From contig NC_135500.1 of assembly GCF_052857255.1 (NCBI RefSeq), positions 49,874,272 to 49,938,271 of the forward strand: a DNA stretch of 64,000 bases. The letters run 5' to 3'. Below the pieces are notes generated by a model. It had not been told where the DNA came from and made no database searches. It saw only the letters and a list, made by a program, of their open reading frames with translations. The stretch comes from Amblyomma americanum (taxonomy: Eukaryota; Arthropoda; Arachnida; Ixodida; Ixodidae). This document shows positions 26,347 to 57,752 of this stretch, piece by piece. Each line of letters starts with the position of its first letter. The first letter of the stretch is position 1. The position numbers were made by a program, and so were the translations under genes.

Positions 26347-26835
<489 letters not shown>

Positions 26836-43841: not shown

Positions 43842-46800
43842 GGCAGCAGCGGCGGCAGCAGCCAAGTCGACCAACTGTGAACGCTGTTCTACTGCATTTT
43901 TGCAGGGCCGACAGATGTGTACATCGATGTTCGTGTGATCAGCTACCGCACCTTGATTCAAGAGAGGAAAGAGGGCAAATCTTGACGATACCGGCCGACG
44001 CCCTGCCTGCAGCTGCGCAACATCTCTCGGAGCATCGTGACGTCAACGTGACCAAGCATGTCGCTGTCAAGCGTATAAGAAGGACGGAACCACCCTCGGC
44101 TGTGCTTTTTGGCAGCAGCGGCGGCAGCAGCCAAGTCGACCAACTGTGAACGCTGTTCTACTGCATTTTTGCAGGGCCGACAGATGTGTACATCGATGTT
44201 CGTGTGATCAGCTACCGCACCTTGATTCAAGAGAGGAAAGAGGGCAAATCTTGACGATACCGGCCGACGCCCTGCCTGCAGCTGCGCAACATCTCTCGGA
44301 GCATCGTGACGTCAACGTGACCAAGCATGTCGCTGTCAAGCGTATAAGAAGGACGGAACCACCCTCGGCTGAGCTTTTTGGCAGCAGCGGCGGCAGCAGC
44401 CAAGTCGACCAACTGTGAACGCTGTTCTACTGCATTTTTGCAGGGCCGACAGATGTGTACATCGATGTTCGTGTGATCAGCTACCGCACCTTGATTCAAG
44501 AGAGGAAAGAGGGCAAATCTTGACGATACCGGCCGACGCCCTGCCTGCAGCTGCGCAACATCTCTCGGAGCATCGTGACGTCAACGTGACCAAGCATGTC
44601 GCTGTCAAGCGTATAAGAAGGACGGAACCACCCTCGGCTGAGCTTTTTGGCAGCAGCGGCGGCAGCAGCCAAGTCGACCAACTGTGAACGCTGTTCTACT
44701 GCATTTTTGCAGGGCCGACAGATGTGTACATCGATGTTCGTGTGATCAGCTACCGCACCTTGATTCAAGAGAGGAAAGAGGGCAAATCTTGACGATACCG
44801 GCCGACGCCCTGCCTGCAGCTGCGCAACATCTCTCGGAGCATCGTGACGTCAACGTGACCAAGCATGTCGCTCTCAAGCGTATAAGAAAGACGGAACCAC
44901 CCTCGGCTGAGCTTTTTGGCAGCAGCGGCGGCAGCAGCCAAGTCGAACAACTGTGAACGCTGTTCTACTGCATTTTTGCAGGGCCGACAGATGTGTACAT
45001 CGATGTTCGTGTGATCAGCTACCGCACCTTGATTCAAGAGAGGAAAGAGGGCAAATCTTGACGATACCGGCCGACGTCCTGCCTGCAGCTGCGCAACATC
45101 TCTCGGAGCATCGTGACGTCAACGTGACCAAGCATGTCGCTGTCAAGCGTATAAGAAGGACGGAACCACCCTCGGCTGAGCTTATTGGCAGCAGCGGCGG
45201 CAGCAGCCAAGTCGACCAACTGTGAACGCTGTTCTACTGCATTTTTGCAGGGCCGACAGATGTGTACATCGATGTTCGTGTGATCAGCTACCGCACCTTG
45301 ATTCAAGAGAGGAAAGAGGGCAAATCTTGACGATACCGGCCGACGCCCTGCCTGCAGCTGCGCAACATCTCTCGGAGCATCGTGACGTCAACGTGACCAA
45401 GCATGTCGCTCGCAAGCGTATAAGAAAGACGGAACCACCCTCGGCTGAGCTTTTTGGCAGCAGCGGCGGCAGCAGCCAAGTCGAACAACTGTGAACGCTG
45501 TTCTACTGCATTTTTGCAGGGCCGACAGATGTGTACATCGATGTTCGTGTGATCAGCTACCGCACCTTGATTCAAGAGAGGAAAGAGGGCAAATCTTGAC
45601 GATACCGGCCGACGCCCTGCCTGCAGCTGCGCAACATCTCTCGGAGCATCGTGACGTCAACGTGACCAAGCATGTCGCTGTCAAGCGTATAAGAAGGACG
45701 GAACCACCCTCGGCTGTGCTTTTTGGCAGCAGCGGCGGCAGCAGCCAAGTCGACCAACTGTGAACGCTGTTCTACTGCATTTTTGCAGGGCCGACAGATG
45801 TGTACATCGATGTTCGTGTGATCAGCTACCGCACCTTGATTCAAGAGAGGAAAGAGGGCAAATCTTGACGATACCGGCCGACGCCCTGCCTGCAGCTGCG
45901 CAACATCTCTCGGAGCATCGTGACGTCAACGTGACCAAGCATGTCGCTGTCAAGCGTATAAGAAGGACGGAACCACCCTCGGCTGTGCTTTTTGGCAGCA
46001 GCGGCGGCAGCAGCCAAGTCGACCAACTGTGAACGCTGTTCTACTGCATTTTTGCAGGGCCGACAGATGTGTACATCGATGTTCGTGTGATCAGCTACCG
46101 CACCTTGATTCAAGAGAGGAAAGAGGGCAAATCTTGACGATACCGGCCGACGCCCTGCCTGCAGCTGCGCAACATCTCTCGGAGCATCGTGACGTCAACG
46201 TGACCAAGCATGTCGCTGTCAAGCGTATAAGAAGGACGGAACCACCCTCGGCTGAGCTTTTTGGCAGCAGCGGCGGCAGCAGCCAAGTCGACCAACTGTG
46301 AACGCTGTTCTACTGCATTTTTGCAGGGCCGACAGATGTGTACATCGATGTTCGTGTGATCAGCTACCGCACCTTGATTCAAGAGAGGAAAGAGGGCAAA
46401 TCTTGACGATACCGGCCGACGCCCTGCCTGCAGCTGCGCAACATCTCTCGGAGCATCGTGACGCCAACGTGACCAAGCATGTCGCTCTCAAGCGTATAAG
46501 AAAGACGGAACCACCCTCGGCTGAGCTTTTTGGCAGCAGCGGCGGCAGCAGCCAAGTCGAACAACTGTGAACGCTGTTCTACTGCAATTTTGCAGGGCCG
46601 ACAGATGTGTACATCGATGTTCGTGTGATCAGCTACCGCACCTTGATTCAAGAGAGGAAAGAGGGCAAATCTTGACGATACCGGCCGACGTCCTGCCTGC
46701 AGCTGCGCAACATCTCTCGGAGCATCGTGACGTCAACGTGACCAAGCATGTCGCTGTCAAGCGTATAAGAAGGACGGAACCACCCTCGGCTGAGCTTATT

Positions 46801-49800
46801 GGCAGCAGCGGCGGCAGCAGCCAAGTCGACCAACTGTGAACGCTGTTCTACTGCATTTTTGCAGGGCCGACAGATGTGTACATCGATGTTCGTGTGATCA
46901 GCTACCGCACCTTGATTCAAGAGAGGAAAGAGGGCAAATCTTGACGATACCGGCCGACGCCCTGCCTGCAGCTGCGCAACATCTCTCGGAGCATCGTGAC
47001 GTCAACGTGACCAAGCATGTCGCTCTCAAGCGTATAAGAAAGACGGAACCACCCTCGGCTGAGCTTTTTGGCAGCAGCGGCGGCAGCAGCCAAGTCGAAC
47101 AACTGTGAACGCTGTTCTACTGCATTTTTGCAGGGCCGACAGATGTGTACATCGATGTTCGTGTGATCAGCTACCGCACCTTGATTCAAGAGAGGAAAGA
47201 GGGCAAATCTTGACGATACCGGCCGACGCCCTGCCTGCAGCTGCGCAACATCTCTCGGAGCATCGTGACGTCAACGTGACCAAGCATGTCGCTGTCAAGC
47301 GTATAAGAAGGACGGAACCACCCTCGGCTGTGCTTTTTGGCAGCAGCGGCGGCAGCAGCCAAGTCGACCAACTGTGAACGCTGTTCTACTGCATTTTTGC
47401 AGGGCCGACAGATGTGTACATCGATGTTCGTGTGATCAGCTACCGCACCTTGATTCAAGAGAGGAAAGAGGGCAAATCTTGACGATACCGGCCGACGTCC
47501 TGCCTGCAGCTGCGCAACATCTCTCGGAGCATCGTGACGTCAACGTGACCAAGCATGTCGCTGTCAAGCGTATAAGAAGGACGGAACCACCCTCGGCTGA
47601 GCTTTTTGGCAGCAGCGGCGGCAGCAGCCAAGTCGAACAACTGTGAACGCTGTTCTACTGCATTTTTGCAGGGCCGACAGATGTGTACATCGATGTTCGT
47701 GTGATCAGCTACCGCACCTTGATTCAAGAGAGGAAAGAGGGCAAATCTTGACGATACCGGCCGACGCCCTGCCTGCAGCTGCGCAACATCTCTCGGAGCA
47801 TCGTGACGTCAACGTGACCAAGCATGTCGCTGTCAAGCGTATAAGAAGGACGGAACCACCCTCGGCTGTGCTTTTTGGCAGCAGCGGCGGCAGCAGCCAA
47901 GTCGACCAACTGTGAACGCTGTTCTACTGCATTTTTGCAGGGCCGACAGATGTGTACATCGATGTTCGTGTGATCAGCTACCGCACCTTGATTCAAGAGA
48001 GGAAAGAGGGCAAATCTTGACGATACCGGCCGACGCCCTGCCTGCAGCTGCGCAACATCTCTCGGAGCATCGTGACGTCAACGTGACCAAGCATGTCGCT
48101 GTCAAGCGTATAAGAAGGACGGAACCACCCTCGGCTGAGCTTTTTGGCAGCAGCGGCGGCAGCAGCCAAGTCGACCAACTGTGAACGCTGTTCTACTGCA
48201 TTTTTGCAGGGCCGACAGATGTGTACATCGATGTTCGTGTGATCAGCTACCGCACCTTGATTCAAGAGAGGAAAGAGGGCAAATCTTGACGATACCGGCC
48301 GACGCCCTGCCTGCAGCTGCGCAACATCTCTCGGAGCATCGTGACGTCAACGTGACCAAGCATGTCGCTCTCAAGCGTATAAGAAAGACGGAACCACCCT
48401 CGGCTGAGCTTTTTGGCAGCAGCGGCGGCAGCAGCCAAGTCGAACAACTGTGAACGCTGTTCTACTGCATTTTTGCAGGGCCGACAGATGTGTACATCGA
48501 TGTTCGTGTGATCAGCTACCGCACCTTGATTCAAGAGAGGAAAGAGGGCAAATCTTGACGATACCGGCCGACGTCCTGCCTGCAGCTGCGCAACATCTCT
48601 CGGAGCATCGTGACGTCAACGTGACCAAGCATGTCGCTGTCAAGCGTATAAGAAGGACGGAACCACCCTCGGCTGAGCTTATTGGCAGCAGCGGCGGCAG
48701 CAGCCAAGTCGACCAACTGTGAACGCTGTTCTACTGCATTTTTGCAGGGCCGACAGATGTGTACATCGATGTTCGTGTGATCAGCTACCGCACCTTGATT
48801 CAAGAGAGGAAAGAGGGCAAATCTTGACGATACCGGCCGACGCCCTGCCTGCAGCTGCGCAACATCTCTCGGAGCATCGTGACGTCAACGTGACCAAGCA
48901 TGTCGCTCTCAAGCGTATAAGAAAGACGGAACCACCCTCGGCTGAGCTTTTTGGCAGCAGCGGCGGCAGCAGCCAAGTCGAACAACTGTGAACGCTGTTC
49001 TACTGCATTTTTGCAGGGCCGACAGATGTGTACATCGATGTTCGTGTGATCAGCTACCGCACCTTGATTCAAGAGAGGAAAGAGGGCAAATCTTGACGAT
49101 ACCGGCCGACGCCCTGCCTGCAGCTGCGCAACATCTCTCGGAGCATCGTGACGTCAACGTGACCAAGCATGTCGCTGTCAAGCGTATAAGAAGGACGGAA
49201 CCACCCTCGGCTGTGCTTTTTGGCAGCAGCGGCGGCAGCAGCCAAGTCGACCAACTGTGAACGCTGTTCTACTGCATTTTTGCAGGGCCGACAGATGTGT
49301 ACATCGATGTTCGTGTGATCAGCTACCGCACCTTGATTCAAGAGAGGAAAGAGGGCAAATCTTGACGATACCGGCCGACGCCCTGCCTGCAGCTGCGCAA
49401 CATCTCTCGGAGCATCGTGACGTCAACGTGACCAAGCATGTCGCTGTCAAGCGTATAAGAAGGACGGAACCACCCTCGGCTGTGCTTTTTGGCAGCAGCG
49501 GCGGCAGCAGCCAAGTCGACCAACTGTGAACGCTGTTCTACTGCATTTTTGCAGGGCCGACAGATGTGTACATCGATGTTCGTGTGATCAGCTACCGCAC
49601 CTTGATTCAAGAGAGGAAAGAGGGCAAATCTTGACGATACCGGCCGACGCCCTGCCTGCAGCTGCGCAACATCTCTCGGAGCATCGTGACGTCAACGTGA
49701 CCAAGCATGTCGCTCTCAAGCGTATAAGAAGGACGGAACCACCCTCGGCTGAGCTTTTTGGCAGCAGCGGCGGCAGCAGCCAAGTCGACCAACTGTGAAC

Positions 49801-51975
49801 GCTGTTCTACTGCATTTTTGCAGGGCCGACAGATGTGTACATCGATGTTCGTGTGATCAGCTACCGCACCTTGATTCAAGAGAGGAAAGAGGGCAAATCT
49901 TGACGATACCGGCCGACGCCCTGCCTGCAGCTGCGCAACATCTCTCGGAGCATCGTGACGTCAACGTGACCAAGCATGTCGCTCTCAAGCGTATAAGAAA
50001 GACGGAACCACCCTCGGCTGAGCTTTTTGGCAGCAGCGGCGGCAGCAGCCAAGTCGACCAACTGTGAACGCTGTTCTACTGCATTTTTGCAGGGCCGACA
50101 GATGTGTACATCGATGTTCGTGTGATCAGCTACCGCACCTTGATTCAAGAGAGGAAAGAGGGCAAATCTTGACGATACCGGCCGACGCCCTGCCTGCAGC
50201 TGCGCAACATCTCTCGGAGCATCGTGACGTCAACGTGACCAAGCATGTCGCTCTCAAGCGTATAAGAAGGACGGAACCACCCTCGGCTGAGCTTTTTGGC
50301 AGCAGCGGCGGCAGCAGCCAAGTCGACCAACTGTGAACGCTGTTCTACTGCATTTTTGCAGGGCCGACAGATGTGTACATCGATGTTCGTGTGATCAGCT
50401 ACCGCACCTTGATTCAAGAGAGGAAAGAGGGCAAATCTTGACGATACCGGCCGACGCCCTGCCTGCAGCTGCGCAACATCTCTCGGAGCATCGTGACGTC
50501 AACGTGACCAAGCATGTCGCTCTCAAGCGTATAAGAAAGACGGAACCACCCTCGGCTGAGCTTTTTGGCAGCAGCGGCGGCAGCAGCCAAGTCGACCAAC
50601 TGTGAACGCTGTTCTACTGCATTTTTGCAGGGCCGACAGATGTGTACATCGATGTTCGTGTGATCAGCTACCGCACCTTGATTCAAGAGAGGAAAGAGGG
50701 CAAATCTTGACGATACCGGCCGACGCCCTGCCTGCAGCTGCGCAACATCTCTCGGAGCATCGTGACGTCAACGTGACCAAGCATGTCGCTCTCAAGCGTA
50801 TAAGAAGGACGGAACCACCCTCGGCTGAGCTTTTTGGCAGCAGCGGCGGCAGCAGCCAAGTCGACCAACTGTGAACGCTGTTCTACTGCATTTTTGCAGG
50901 GCCGACAGATGTGTACATCGATGTTCGTGTGATCAGCTACCGCACCTTGATTCAAGAGAGGAAAGAGGGCAAATCTTGACGATACCGGCCGACGCCCTGC
51001 CTGCAGCTGCGCAACATCTCTCGGAGCATCGTGACGTCAACGTGACCAAGCATGTCGCCGTCAAGCGTATAAGAAGGACGGAACCACCCTCGGCTGAGCT
51101 TTTTGGCAGCAGCGGCGGCAGCAGCCAAGTCGACCAACTGTGAACGCTGTTCTACTGCATTTTTGCAGGGCCGACAGATGTGTACATCGATGTTCGTGTG
51201 ATCAGCTACCGCACCTTGATTCAAGAGAGGAAAGAGGGCAAATCTTGACGATACCGGCCGACGCCCTGCCTGCAGCTGCGCAACATCTCTCGGAGCATCG
51301 TGACGTCAACGTGACCAAGCATGTCGCTCTCAAGCGTATAAGAAAGACGGAACCACCCTCGGCTGAGCTTTTTGGCAGCAGCGGCGGCAGCAGCCAAGTC
51401 GAACAACTGTGAACGCTGTTCTACTGCATTTTTGCAGGGCCGACAGATGTGTACATCGATGTTTGTGTGATCAGCTACCGCACCTTGATTCAAGAGAGGA
51501 AAGAGGGCAAATCTTGACGATACCGGCCGACGTCCTGCCTGCAGCTGCGCAACATCTCTCGGAGCATCGTGACGTCAACGTGACCAAGCATGTCGCTGTC
51601 AAGCGTATAAGAAGGACGGAACCACCCTCGGCTGAGCTTATTGGCAGCAGCGGCGGCAGCAGCCAAGTCGACCAACTGTGAACGCTGTTCTACTGCATTT
51701 TTGCAGGGCCGACAGATGTGTACATCGATGTTCGTGTGATCAGCTACCGCACCTTGATTCAAGAGAGGAAAGAGGGCAAATCTTGACGATACCGGCCGAC
51801 GCCCTGCCTGCAGCTGCGCAACATCTCTCGGAGCATCGTGACGTCAACGTGACCAAGCATGTCGCTCTCAAGCGTATAAGAAGGACGGAACCACCCTCGG
51901 CTGAGCTTTTTGGCAGCAGCGGCGGCAGCAGCCAAGTCGAACAACTGTGAACGCTGTTCTACTGCATTTTTGCAG
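43842..51975 (+). repeat. 30 x 269-bp tandem promoter-monomer array
   Basis: Thirty complete units (43877-51946, exact period 269, no indels) plus partial ends. Units differ at a handful of positions: GACGCC/GACGTC, GCTGTC/GCTCTC, AGAAGG/AGAAAG, GTGCTTTTT/GAGCTTTTT/GAGCTTATT, GTCGACC/GTCGAAC. Each has TGACGTCA (first copy 44038-44045; altered to TGACGCCA near 46460), then TATAAGAA 36 bp on (44074-44081), then a CAGCAGCGGCGGCAGCAGC block. The last unit stops at TTTTTGCAG (51975) and runs into the 5' UTR of a LINE. I read it as that LINE's 5' promoter repeat. The 90-codon ORFs on both strands of every unit are by-products, since 269 is not a multiple of three. Confidence 0.9.
44038..44081 (+). 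promoter_or_regulatory. CRE plus TATA-like core, representative of each monomer
   Basis: TGACGTCA followed 36 bp later by TATAAGAA. It repeats every 269 bp (the next TATAAGAA begins at 44343). A predicted start site about 31-37 nt downstream of TATA falls at the CTTTTTGGCAGCAGCGG block, which is also where the array begins at 43842. Confidence 0.55.
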
Positions 51976-52023
51976 GTTGGTCGAAAATTCCTCTGTATTA
52001 TTCTTACCTTTCTTCGTTACCCT

Positions 52024-52061
52024 TGCTGCTGCTACTGCTGCTGCTGCTGCTGCTGCTGCTG
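52024..52061 (+). repeat. (CTG)n in LINE 5' UTR
   Basis: About 12 CTG units with one CTA, between the array end and ORF1. Confidence 0.85.
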
Positions 52062-52141
52062 ATCTGTCGTTGTAATTTGATCTGTTTCTCTCGTAGTTCG
52101 TGGCTAAATACGCGTGTGTGAAATTGTGCTTGTATGCTGCC

Positions 52142-53047
52142 ATGCCTGCGGAGGTGTGTTCGGCCTGTAATGACGATTGCCCAGACGACGAGGGCTTTCC
52201 ATGTGTGGATTGCACTTATATGTACCACTTCGGAAAGTGCTCAGGAGTTGCTGAATCAACGTTCAGGTCAAAGGGTGAAGCATGGCGTAAGGCGTGGCGC
52301 TGTCCAACATGTCGGCATGCAGGCGCAAGGGGCAGCCAAAGTGGCAGGTCGAACACGGAGCCGGAAACTGATTATGCCAGCTTGTTCATGAGCATAAATG
52401 ACAAACTGGAACAGCTTATGACATTGAAGTGCACGGTGGAGAACATTGAGCAGTCGGTACAAACAATGTCAGATCAGTATGACACAATTCTTCAGCACAT
52501 TACCCGCCAAGATAAGGACATTGCCGAATTAAGGAAACGGGTTGACGCTATAGAAAGCAGGGAACCCTTGCTTGACTCTGAACAGATAATGAAGGATATT
52601 AATGACCTTGAGTGGCAGAGCAGGAAATGAAACCTCGAATTCCATGGAATTTCAGAAAGTGAAAATGAAGACCTGTTGTCGAAGGTTAACGCTGTTACGA
52701 GCAAGGTGAGCCTGCCCGCGCTGACTGTGAGCGATGTGGCCGCTGTGCATCGATTGCCAGCAGCTAAAGATAACGTCCCAGCGATTCTTGTCCGGTTTTC
52801 AAGACAATCACACAAAGATCTGTTCTTGAGCAAGAGGGCAGAACTGAACCAAATGAAAACAAACTGCTTTATGCTCGAGAACTTGACAAAAAGGAACAAG
52901 GAGTTGCTTAGGGACGCAAAAAACTGGGCAAAAAACAACAACTTCAAGTACGTTTGGCACAGAAATGGGAAAATTTTTGTCAGACAGCGAGACGGGGCGA
53001 ATGCAATTTATGTTGCGTGTAAGGCAGATTTGGATAAAGCTGCTTAG
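52142..53047 (+). pseudogene. LINE ORF1 with PHD finger
   Basis: From ATG 52142: MPAEVCSACNDDCPDDEGFP, CVDCTYMYHFGKC and RWRCPTC-like CPTCR complete a C4HC3 PHD-type finger in the first 60 residues. Then a coiled coil (KLEQLMTLKCTVENIEQSVQ through DIAELRKRVDAIE), then NLEFHGI, VHRLPAAKDNVPAILVRFS and KKRNKELL-like segments of the L1-ORF1-like RNA-binding fold, ending at TAG 53045-53047. One in-frame TGA (52628-52630), before NLEFHGI, is the only lesion. PHD fingers in CR1-type ORF1 proteins are known; the target of the finger is unknown. Confidence 0.85.
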
Positions 53048-53132
53048 CTTTATTACGTGTATCTTTTTCGTTAGTCTTTTTCAGTTTCAGTTTTGTCAGT
53101 GACAGCGTCAAGGTGCAATTCCTTCATTGCAC

Positions 53133-55984
53133 ATGGCGTTGGACACTTCTGATTGTGTAATGCCAAGTGAATTTCTGAATGTTTGCGGATCTCAGAACCC
53201 GCAATCATTTAGTGTATTTCATTTAAATGCTCGTTCAGCGGTGGCTAAGACAGCCGATCTCGAGTTGCTTTTTACGCAGTTAGGCTTTGATTTTGATACG
53301 GTCATGCTGACCGAAACTTGGTATACTGAACATAACAATGTATTCAAGCTTCCTTTGTATGACTCACACTTTATCAATCGCACGAACAGTCGCGGTGGTG
53401 GCGTACTATTGATGGTAAAAAAACATTTTCAATCTGAAGTGTTGCATGAATTTTCTTTTGTCCACCCTGATTATGAAGTCCTGTCTCTTGTTATCGAAAG
53501 GAAGGTTGTGGCAGTTATCTATCGCCCCCCAAGCGGAAACTTAAAATCCTTTTTTTCCTTTCTCGACTTTTTCTTATCTTTTATAAGCGAAAACAAATAC
53601 GATGTCATTTTAGGTGGTGATTTCAATATCAACTTCCTTGTAGACAACCCCACGAAAATTGAATTTGAAAATCTATTAAATTCCTTCGCTGTTCAGAACG
53701 TGATTTCCAATCCTACACGTGTTACACTGCAGTCTGAATCACTAATTGACCTATTTATAACCAATACGCACATGCCTGTCCTGAACGCAGGTGTAATAAA
53801 TACAGATATCAGTGACCACCGCGCCACCTTTATGTGCATTCCGAAAAGTAAATTTCCTAATAGAAAAGTGACAACGAAATTATTTCGGGATATTTCGACA
53901 AAAAAACTGAACACTTTCAAAGAGGAAGTTAATAGTCATGATTGGAGTGACGTTCTCAATGAAACAGCTGCCGAAAGGGCTTACGCTTTGTTTTTAACGG
54001 CCTTTTTACGTATATACAACAAGTGTTTTCCTTATAAACATGCAGAGAAACGTAAGAACATCAGGAAGCCATGGATTACACCTGAATTGCTGAAGAAAAT
54101 TCGTAAAAAGGACAAGCTTTACAAAAAGTTTGAAAAAACACGAGACCCTGACATATTTAAAGCGTTTAAAGTGTTTCGAAATAAACTGACGACGGAAATA
54201 CGGAGAGCGCGCGATCAATATTTTTGTGACAAGTTTTCCTCTATGAATAAGTCAGATGAATTATGGAGGAAACTGAATGCACTTCTGGGCAGGTCTTCAG
54301 GTTCAAGCTTAATAACAACAATTCAGAATGGGGGTAAGGAATTGACAGGCATTGACTTAGCTAATGCATTTAACAGCGACTTTACAAATACAACTAGTAA
54401 TTTCGTCGATTCAAATACTCTTAATACTCGAAACGAGAAATCTATGTTCTTAACGCCAATATCAGTCAGAGGTGATATCGGTTTTCATGGGCTTAAATAA
54501 CAGTAAAAGTGCTGACGCAGACGACATTGTAATAAAACCAGTAAAGTATGTGATAGAAGACATAGCAGGGTGCTTAACTCAAATATATAACCTTTGTTTA
54601 TCTCAAGGACTATTTCCGAAGCAAATGCAGCTTGCCAAAGTGAGTGTACTGCACAAGAAAGGAAGTAAGAATGAATTTACAAACTTTAGACCCGTGTCAA
54701 TACTTCCAGTTTTTTCTAAAGGATTTGAAAAAATGATTCTCTCTAGAATAACAAATTTTAGTGAACAATGCAATAATCTTCACGACGCGCAATACGGCTT
54801 CAGAAAACACAGATCAACAGAAATGGCACTGCTGGAGCAAAAGGAATTTGTTCTAGAATCTCTCGAAAACAAAGAAGTAGCCCTTGGGGTATACGTCGAT
54901 TTCACAAAAGCTTTTGATTACTTAAATTACTATCCTACTGAAAAAACTTGAAATGTACGGCTTCCGTGGAACTGTGCTATCGCTTTTGACATCCTACCTA
55001 AATGATCGAAACCAGTACGTATATTTAAATGGCTACTCGTCCCATGTATTGCCCATTTCTGCAGGTGTGCCTCAGGGGAGTATTCTTGGCCCGTTTCTTT
55101 TTAATTTGTACCTAAATGACATCATAAGCATCGATCCCACGATAAAATTTGTCATTTACGCGGATGATGTGACACTGTTGTTCACTGCAGCTAGCGCAGA
55201 TGAGGTCATCACTAGAGCGAACAAAACTCTTGAGAAATTAGACATATGGGCCCAACTGAACAAATTAAAAATAAACGTTAGTAAAACGAAGGCTGTCCTA
55301 TACCGTGCGAAAAACAAAATTATTAGCATAGACAGAGACATTAAGTTGAACAACTCAAAGATAGAGATAGTAAACACATTCAAAATACTTGGAGTATATT
55401 TCACCGAAAATATGACGTGGGACAATCACGTGAGCCACGTTATCTCAAAACTGTCTTGCATCGTGGGAGTAACGTACGCAAACAGATATACTCTACCTCC
55501 AAAGGTTAAACTTTTATTGTACAATGCACTATTCCACTCACACATAAACTATTGCCAACTAGTCTGGGGGAATACAACCAAAGGAAATTTGCAAAAAATT
55601 CTGACATTGCAGAAAAAAATGTTAAGAAACATTGAAAACGTCCCCAGAAGTCACCCTTCCCACCTTTTGTTCTCGAAATATTGCATAATGAAAATAGACA
55701 GCCTATACTCGCACGGCTTGTGTTCGCGTTATAGGATTGAAATAAAAAACAACACTCATTGTCTATTATGGTTGGCATCTCTTTGTAAAAGGACACTAGC
55801 TTATGAATATAGAAGCACACAGCCTTGGTTAGTAAAAACGTGCAGGACAGATTATGGACGACAAATGATAAACAGATTGCTACCACACTTGTTAAATATC
55901 TGTTACAGAATCGGTATCACTCCCGAGTTAACTTCAAAAAGAGAACTGAAATTACTGTTCATAGAAAACAATTCCTTCATATGA
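53133..55984 (+). pseudogene. LINE ORF2: APE endonuclease and RT
   Basis: Endonuclease: FHLNARSAVAKTADLELLF, TETWYTE, SRGGGVLLM, VIYRPPSGN, VILGGDFNINF, DISDHRATF. RT: KSADADDIVIKP, VSVLHKKGSKNEFTNFRPVS, QYGFRKHRSTEMAL, VDFTKAFDYLN, AGVPQGSILGPFLFNLYLND, FVIYADDVTLLF, ILGVYFTENMTWDNH. The C-terminus has HINYCQLVWGN and ends in TGA 55982-55984. Two single-base frame changes, near 54465-54475 and near 54925-54935 just after the AFDYLN motif, are the only lesions. All catalytic motifs are present, so the copy is young. Confidence 0.88.
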
Positions 55985-56414
55985 TGGGGTATTTCTAGCA
56001 TTTTGCATATGTACGCTGTACCTTTCCTTGAGCAACGCTTTTCTGTTCATGCGCATTGTTTTCTCCGTCTCTTTCCTTTACTTATGTAACGTTCTTGTTT
56101 TTTCGGGCTTTTTCCGGCATGTACTTTCGCTTATCACCGGTGTATCATACAGTTCAATTAGAATTGTTTTGTTTATTTTCCTTGTACAAGCCGATCTGAC
56201 TTTGTAAACAAAGCATTTCTGTATTTTGATTTGTGTTGTTATTATGCCGCTCTGCCATTATTTTATTTTATTTTTTTTCTCGTCCTCGCTTTTGTTTCTT
56301 GAATTTTTTGTAATCTGGGGAGCTGGGAACTAGTCAAGCTGAATTTTCAGCTTTTTTTCCCGCACTCCCTCACTTCATGAGTGAAATAAAGAATTTATTT
56401 ATTTATTTATTTAA
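55985..56414 (+). other. LINE 3' UTR and (ATTT)n tail
   Basis: T-rich 3' UTR, AATAAA at 56385-56390, tail AATTTATTTATTTATTTATTTAA to 56414. Confidence 0.8.
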
Positions 56415-56447: not shown

Positions 56448-57752
56448 ATGCACTGTACACGTGTTTCTGTCCTCTACAAAAAAGGTGATAGAAACCAAGT
56501 GAACTACAGGCCAATATCAATACTTCCTATATATTCTAAATTACTTGAAAAAATTGTCTGTCAGCAATTCATTTCTTTTGAATCTGATAACCATATATTT
56601 ACGAGCTCTCAATATGGTTTTAGAAAATACTCATCCACAGAATCTGCTTTAATACACCAGAAACAACACATTTTGAAGGAGCTTGAACAAAAACCAAAGA
56701 GAATAGTAATTGCAATCTTTATTGGTTTCACGAAAGCTTTTGATCTTATTATTTACCATTTTCTACTCCGTAAGTTAAAACTATGCGGCTTTCGCGGGCG
56801 CACAGTCTCACTAATAAAATCATATTTAGAATTTCGCAAGCAGTAAGTTACATTACAAGGTTTCACATCTGAAATGCAGCCCGTTTGCTCTGGCGTTCCC
56901 AAGGAAGTATACTTGGTCCTTTTCTTTTCAATACCTACAATAAGGACATTGCTTGTGCTGTACCGCTCGTAAATTTGTTATTTATGCGGATGACACTAGT
57001 GCATTCATATCTGGAGACAACATAGATGGGTTGGTCGATAGAGCAAACCGCGTGTTAGAGCAACTAGATCAATGGGCCCTGAGTAACGCGTTAAAAATTT
57101 AAATCGCAAAGACGAAAGTTGTAACCTTCCGCACTAAAAACAAACTAGTCCATTTGAGCGAAACTGTATCTTTAAGGTCCTGCCCTTTAGAAGTAGTAGC
57201 AACGTTCAAAACATTAGATGTTATATTTAATGAAAGCATGTCTTGGAAAGCACACATATTACACTAACCACATAATTATCTCAAATTCTTGGTCTTCTCT
57301 ACCGGAATCATCACGTACTCCCAACATCTGCGATGCTCTTAATTTATCACTCCCTTTTTAGTTGCCACCTTAATTGTTGTGGCTTGGTCTGGGGCGCTAC
57401 AACTCAGAAAAATCTGCAAAAGATACACGTGCTGCAAAAAAGTTTTCTGCACATTCTTGAAAACGTGCTACGGTCTTATCACACCGCCAAACTTTTCCCG
57501 AAGCATAAAATGATTCCTATACGGAACATGTTTCCTTATCGACTTTGTCGAGCTTTCAAACAAGAATTATCTAAACACACAAGCCTCCTTCAAATGCTAG
57601 CAGAATCAAACACTCACACTCCGACATATGAAGCAAGTAGTAGGAACCAATGGAAAATAAAAACATATTCAACTAGCTACGGTCTACATACGCTACAAAA
57701 TAGGCTGCCACGAATATTGAATGAACTTTGTCGGGTTGAATTGGGGAGATAA
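56448..57752 (+). pseudogene. LINE RT fragment related to the element at 52-56 kb
   Basis: TRVSVLYKKGDRNQVNYRPI, QYGFRKYSSTESALIHQ, IGFTKAFDLI, then PVCSGVP, a frame change, KFVIYADDTSAFI-like sequence and a C-terminal NCCGLVWGATTQKNLQKIHV block to TAA near 57750. It parallels 54650-55960 residue by residue but is clearly diverged, with several stops and frame changes (near 56845, 56895, 57100, 57265). No 5' part, 3' UTR or tail. Confidence 0.78.

Follow-up and report, generated by a model that had tools for sequence, protein, structure and literature searches.

The 269-bp unit repeated in tandem ahead of a LINE in the tick Amblyomma americanum is very probably a promoter monomer of that LINE, with the array serving as its 5' UTR; we hypothesize that transcription would start from a TATA box in a unit, that the units further downstream would travel in the RNA, and that units would be regained at the DNA level. 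Units are linked to this LINE across the genome, the 5' ends of its insertions are locked to one phase of the unit, unit number varies between copies and changes in place, and arrays carry variants of their own.

The Array and the LINE in the Window

The window is the whole stretch of 64,000 nucleotides that was analysed, and the features relevant here are as follows.

43842-51911, + strand: array of 30 units, putative promoter units (TRF, comparison with the majority sequence)
Within each unit: leader-like 1-65; putative promoter region with TGACGTCA (197-204) and TATAAGAA (233-240); CTTTTT (264-269)
51912-51976, + strand: 65-bp partial 31st unit (64/65 identity to unit positions 1-65)
51977-52141, + strand: non-repeated 5' UTR ("tether"), 165 bp, with a (TGC)n tract at 52024-52061
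52142-53047, + strand: ORF1, PHD-like N-terminus by eye, Baculo_FP_2nd C-terminus, in-frame TGA at 52628
53103-55984, + strand: ORF2, APE endonuclease and reverse transcriptase, in three overlapping frames (53103-54500, 54454-54951, 54926-55984)
55985-56414, + strand: 3' UTR, with AATAAA and a short (TTTA)n tail at its end

TRF describes 43842-51976 as a repeat with a period of 269, 30.2 copies, 98% matches and 0% indels, and reading this repeat in steps of 269 gives 30 head-to-tail units without any indel, each with 0-4 substitutions against their majority sequence, so that the thirty units of equal length in the original prediction are borne out. The motifs begin at unit positions 197 (TGACGTCA), 233 (TATAAG) and 264 (CTTTTT), and the predicted fixed spacing with a single altered motif also holds: 11 positions vary among the 30 units, none of them inside TATAAGAA, and TGACGTCA is changed in unit 10 alone (T202C). 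The array has the orientation of the LINE and runs straight into its 5' UTR, as had been proposed; the stretch said to be shared at the array-UTR junction exists, its length being 65 bp instead of 64, with one mismatch, after which the sequence continues as unrelated 5' UTR. In an RNA initiated at the last full unit, this partial unit would form the beginning of the leader. Array lengths, here and below, depend on the genome assembly. Elsewhere in the window, a GATA microsatellite of ~122 copies lies at 26347-26835.

Linkage of the Units to the LINE

The genome searched comprises 2.56 Gb in 429 contigs. A search with the unit gave 29 first-look candidates, all of which were scored, and 189 matches; loci were read among the matches listed, where 21 unit loci were distinguished by their coordinates (an interrupted array on C7 being counted once). 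All 21 adjoin the 5' end of the LINE, and their outer flanks differ while the unit-LINE junction stays constant, so among the matches listed there are none of the arrays away from LINEs that would have spoken against the original prediction. Since the unit recurs upstream of other LINE copies, a chance occurrence of the array is excluded.

The reciprocal search, with the UTR and ORF1, gave 43 candidates, 40 of them scored, and 43 matches, 28 of which start within the first six UTR bases (the window, 20 fetched loci and seven others); the remaining matches, apart from one copy on C7 described below, are without the 5' end. Full-length copies lacking units would have spoken against the original prediction, but unit sequence lies directly upstream, on the same strand, in 28 of the 28 listed copies in which the beginning of the 5' UTR is preserved. 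Three of these unit-bearing copies have diverged considerably in the LINE body, with an identity of only 78% for L040 and for the C1 copy with L053, and of 85% for the L052 copy, and the unit is therefore older than this burst. In a search with the 3' end, 40 of the 180 candidates were scored, and each of the 40 was a match; this suggests that most copies of the LINE are without the 5' end, as is usual for LINEs. No target-site duplication was recognised by eye in the four copies for which both flanks were available, two of which sit in other repeats. The copy at C7:113880210 has its first base within the (TGC)n tract and is preceded by at least 300 bases of CTG repeat; in the corresponding sequence (L051, C7:113880200-113880499) the (TGC)n of the 5' UTR is expanded to 100 CTG repeats or more.

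The candidate promoter motifs are also better kept than the rest of the unit. Across three divergent units, two of which were measured at 82-83% identity, the CRE and TATA parts are conserved at 0.91, compared with 0.81 elsewhere (permutation p 0.02, for a region that we chose ourselves). Among the divergent copies, the CRE has been lost from L040, and a 3-bp gap falls at the TATA of L053. A sigma-70 promoter scan of the sequence was set aside as irrelevant to this genome.

Unit Number per Copy

The listed 5'-complete copies of the LINE carry from 0.65 to about 32 units; the numbers below count units that are complete or nearly so. Three arrays are very long: the window with 30 units, the C5 copy with about 32 (from match coordinates), and the C7:1535 copy with about 30, of which 26 full units and one split unit lie in L047 and about three more are placed by coordinates. 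Intermediate arrays have 15 units (L038), 10 (L033), 7 (L041), 4 (L035, and also L049 and L050) and 3 (L031). Two units each are found in L032, L034, L036, L037, L039, L042 and L048, the last being a duplicate of L042, and one unit in L043, L045, L046 and two duplicates of L046 on C6, while L044, L040, L052 and L057 have less than one. The C4:26650 and L053 arrays were followed part-way, short of their ends. Most, though not all, of the 28 listed 5'-complete copies have at least two units, and arrays of about 10 or more occur at 5 of 19 same-family loci.

The split unit of the C7:1535 array encloses a nested insertion of 2,164 bp (L047, 2775-4938 in the orientation of the LINE; C7 about 153.564-153.566 Mb), which with its inverted ends (ATCGCCCAATTTTTT...) is by its look a DNA transposon.

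Start Phase of the Insertions

The 5' end of an insertion was scored as the outermost base that matches the unit without interruption, and insertions with distinct outer flanks, judged by eye, were counted as independent. Sixteen of 18 independent 5' ends of the same family fall within 19 of the 269 positions, from unit -6 to +12. In unit coordinates, the ends are 1 for the window, 0 for L031 and L036, -2 for L032, L034 and L041, 10 for L033, 12 for L038, -6 for L043, -3 for L045 and -5 for the C5 copy (L054). Among copies grouped as one insertion, the ends are 5 for L035/L037/L039 (the value being that of L037, since the exact-match value of L035 and L039b is displaced to 17 by a substitution), -5 for L042/L048 (-4 for L042 alone), 3 for L046/L058/L059 and 1 for L049/L050. 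The C7 copy (L055) has CTTTTT with one G missing and an exact-match value of 2. A chance match to a T-rich or CAG-rich flank can shift single values by a few bases, and the flank of the window copy is itself CAG-rich.

The two same-family ends outside the cluster lie at 95 (L044) and about 61 (L057), and when the divergent L040 (about 80) and L052 (about 92) are added, 16 of 20 insertions remain in the cluster; the four off-phase ends are what ordinary 5' truncation would be expected to give. By a binomial calculation, for a 19-nt range chosen after seeing the data, the clustering has a probability of 5e-17 (16/18) or 1.4e-15 (16/20).

The position of the cluster is consistent with a TATA-set start. 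C264, the first base of CTTTTT, is 31 nt after the T of TATAAG, and about 31 nt past the TATA is the usual distance for such a start. The 16 clustered ends lie 30-48 nt past T233, none of them more than one base upstream of C264, and CTTTTT is kept at the 5' end of L043, L048, the C5 copy (L054) and the C7 copy (L055). Insertion ends are locked to the predicted start site, the coincidence to which the original prediction had pointed, and this phase-locking is as expected of RNA that would have been started within a unit. Just outside the outermost unit of L041 stand two extra copies of an 11-bp ATTTGGCAGCT piece, possibly a stutter of reverse transcription at the 5' end of the RNA.

Proposed Mechanism

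Taken together, we propose that each unit would bear an RNA polymerase II promoter of the TATA type together with a CRE site, and that transcription would begin near the end of the unit, at about C264 of CTTTTT, just before the leader of the next unit. RNA from unit k would then hold the units from k+1 onwards, the 65-bp leader, the UTR and the ORFs, and its reverse transcription would yield a new copy that starts at the phase of the start site and contains complete promoters, unless k is the last unit. An upstream TATA promoter would thereby become internal and survive retrotransposition, each round costing at least one unit, and units would be regained at the DNA level, by duplication of single units and of blocks within the array. 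In this model it is predicted from sequence that the units act as promoters, where exactly transcription starts, and that units are lost in each round.

One could instead suppose that the innermost unit alone works as a promoter and that long arrays are passive, satellite-like expansions in place, without a role in transposition. Such expansion would agree with the in-place changes in unit number and the many private variants per array that are described below, and with long arrays being a minority. However, it predicts new copies with zero units, of which there are none among the 28 listed 5'-complete copies, and the outermost ends of arrays with at least two units sit at the start phase, and we consider it unlikely. 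Starts in the last unit should yield zero-unit copies under the promoter-monomer reading as well, and their absence among the 28 suggests either that most RNAs begin in outer units or that jumps are rare for elements with few units.

We regard it as less likely still that the units are promoter monomers whose phase-locked ends were cut by a self-cleaving ribozyme in the unit and do not mark a transcription start. Ribozymes are known at the 5' ends of LINEs (HDV-like ones in R2 and others), and the insertion ends here cluster near GGCAGC. However, several copies keep CTTTTT before GGCAGC, the ends are at the distance expected from TATAAG, and no hammerhead or HDV-like family is among the seven Rfam matches obtained at E up to 10 in 51374-52200, which are to miRNA, sRNA or frameshift-element models and all far under their gathering scores.

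Turnover of Arrays at the DNA Level

Units of the same array resemble each other more than they resemble units of other arrays, with 2.17 differences within arrays vs. 4.45 between them (107 units from 12 arrays, unit positions 1-12 and local duplicates being omitted), a contrast reached in 0 of 1000 shuffles. Further, in 8 of 12 arrays at least half of the units carry a variant that is absent from the others of the 15 arrays compared.

Changes in place can be seen in three duplicates on C4 (C4:7950613, 7964689 and 7971096), which have one insertion junction and 98-99% identity over the last 400 bp of the flank (5-7 mismatches), and yet hold 4, 2 and 2 units. The junction of this trio (L035, L037 and L039, C4 7.94-7.97 Mb) lies inside an unrelated 98-99-bp minisatellite several kb long, and the two extra units of L035 have three variants in common with its first unit. 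The window array, in turn, shows a periodicity at a lag of 13 units, with 1.53 differences where 2.58 are expected (p 0.007 over 15 lags); no clear long-lag block pattern was seen in the other three arrays tested (L047, L038 and L033). The window array also has only 5 singletons in 8,070 bp, compared with 26 private substitutions in 4,240 bp of body (p 2e-8), where private means not shared with the three other full bodies; part of these substitutions may predate the insertion.

The within-array likeness, the C4 duplicates, the 13-unit lag and the scarcity of singletons in the window indicate that arrays turn over at the DNA level. The length of 30 units probably arose largely by DNA-level block duplication after or around the insertion, and was not carried whole via RNA. 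Shared ancestry of the long arrays in a single long array was not supported, since few variants are common to the window, L038, L033 and L047: two (30C>A and 225G>C) occur in both the window and L038, one occurs in both L038 and L033, and the remaining four pairs have no variant in common. Unit distances and body distances are uncorrelated across 15 copies, with Mantel r of -0.36 and -0.42 (p 0.92 and 0.94; unmasked version, r -0.20 and -0.41) for about 440 bp of body per copy, and units and bodies therefore do not have one simple shared history.

That the units are homogenised and block-duplicated in a satellite-like manner, and that one insertion of the family sits in an unrelated 99-bp minisatellite (C4:7.95 Mb), might suggest an ordinary satellite merely lying beside a LINE, or a LINE inserting into such a satellite, an explanation that is hardly tenable and that we rejected on the linkage among the matches listed (28/28 5'-complete copies with units, 21/21 loci at the same junction with differing flanks).

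The LINE Body and its Classification

ORF1 of the window copy opens with an ATG at 52142. The copy is not intact, having a premature TGA in ORF1 and an ORF2 split over three frames, and breaks in the frame of ORF2 also occur in the other three full bodies seen (L039a, L042 and L050). Two near-identical database proteins ("lgn") were matched, an ORF1 with 98% identity over 91% of the query and an ORF2 of 951 amino acids with 96% identity over 98%; each is assigned to a contig of 4,099 bases, presumably one and the same. Other relatives of ORF1 exist at 40-62% identity. Those with a named source come from the ticks Dermacentor, Rhipicephalus, Haemaphysalis and Ixodes, at 41-45% identity, followed by moths at 28-29%.

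Pfam matched the LINE proteins to PF03372/PF14529 and RVT_1, with no RNase H family among the matches; the LINE has the APE endonuclease and reverse transcriptase without RNase H that are expected of the CR1/L2 lineage of the Jockey superfamily. The APE/RT ORF2 of the original prediction is thereby confirmed, and a PHD finger is not found by Pfam in the LINE's own ORF1 (L042, P0001), although PF00628 scores below threshold in 6 of the 7 proteins of one further scan, all six being relatives (best 22.9 bits against a cut-off of 24). No L1-type ORF1 (transposase 22, PF02994) was found by Pfam in the ORF1s scanned, in which Baculo_FP_2nd was found instead. According to the available part of one survey, PHD-type ORF1 proteins occur in the CR1 and L2 lineages, and all elements of the Jockey lineage have another ORF1 type (PMC4120745). 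We classify this LINE as non-L1 and CR1-like, of the CR1/L2 type, as judged by architecture rather than by a phylogeny of the reverse transcriptase.

Several further features of the UTR and its surroundings may be mentioned. The CAG-rich leader and the (TGC)n of the UTR (51912-52061) are predicted to form a stem of ~21 pairs, with a z of -2.74 in the window and of -1.81 in the 78% relative L040, and this modelled fold may bear on translation or stability. Where the sequences of unit and UTR part, TTTTTGCAG/G (unit 56-65, window 51967-51976) resembles a splice acceptor, and CAG/GTTGGT in the UTR copy resembles a weak splice donor, in a stretch that is well kept in divergent copies. Just 3' of the LINE and in its orientation, 56480-57752 appears by eye to be what is left of a second, decayed reverse transcriptase.

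Comparison with Known Systems and Implications

LINEs must carry their promoter inside the RNA that they copy. Mouse L1 answers this need with monomers, whose gain and loss are hard to watch there. In the telomeric HeT-A of Drosophila, an upstream copy of the repeat supplies the promoter of the downstream copy, from a promoter in its 3' end; HeT-A differs from the tick LINE in consisting of whole elements in tandem at telomeres and not of a monomer array.

The closest parallel is mouse L1, whose 5' UTR is described, in the part of the source available, as tandem monomers of 208-214 bp (A and Tf types; also Gf) in variable number, followed by a tether, with more than 10 monomers at 7 of 5,765 loci and outermost ends clustered near nt 70-110; other vertebrate L1s have tandem 5' UTR monomers as well (PMC9022269). 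The tick LINE shares with that description same-sense tandem units before a non-repeated tether and ORF1, a variable unit number, and outermost ends clustered at one phase. It differs in having no L1-type ORF1, in a unit with a TATA-like box and a CRE ("TATA" is absent from PMC9022269 as far as available), in arrays that reach about 30, 30 and 32 units, and in an outermost unit that is nearly complete, whereas that of mouse typically starts at about nt 70-110; these differences set it apart from the monomers as that paper describes them rather than by comparison of sequences. The monomer-bearing LINEs of the same source, in the part available, are all vertebrate L1s, unlike the non-L1 LINE of the tick. 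By analogy, the tick array, which belongs to a non-L1 LINE and is unusually long, probably acts as the promoter monomers of mouse L1 do.

With its APE/RT ORF2 and an ORF1 that looks PHD-like by eye, the tick LINE resembles the PHD-bearing LINEs of the CR1/L2 lineage. For some PHD elements with a single ORF, the stretch 5' of the PHD has been called "highly repetitive" (PMC4120745), and related arrays may have been glimpsed in this remark, although the available part of that source describes neither promoter units nor a start phase, and "tandem" and "promoter" are absent from its main text. Apart from that sentence, no tandem promoters at the 5' end of a LINE other than L1, or in any tick, were found in the open-licence literature, which was covered mostly as titles and openings of abstracts, so that this is weak evidence of absence; PMC9659126 and PMC5753468, in the parts available, contain nothing on the subject.

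The tick LINE thus seems to be the same solution as that of mouse L1 in an extreme form, with a start phase set by a TATA box. The family is small (28 listed 5'-complete copies), its arrays carry variants of their own and some of its duplicates differ in unit number, and the birth, spending and regrowth of arrays are therefore directly testable in it. A broader proposal, to which we give an even chance of being right, is that a counted promoter array arose independently in a LINE that has a TATA box and does not belong to the L1 clade. Starts would occur mostly at outer units, in keeping with the lack of zero-unit copies among those listed, at least one unit would be spent in each round, and the array would be refilled in place by block duplication of the DNA. 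If this is true, the transposition lifespan of an element would be the balance between the loss and the regain of units.
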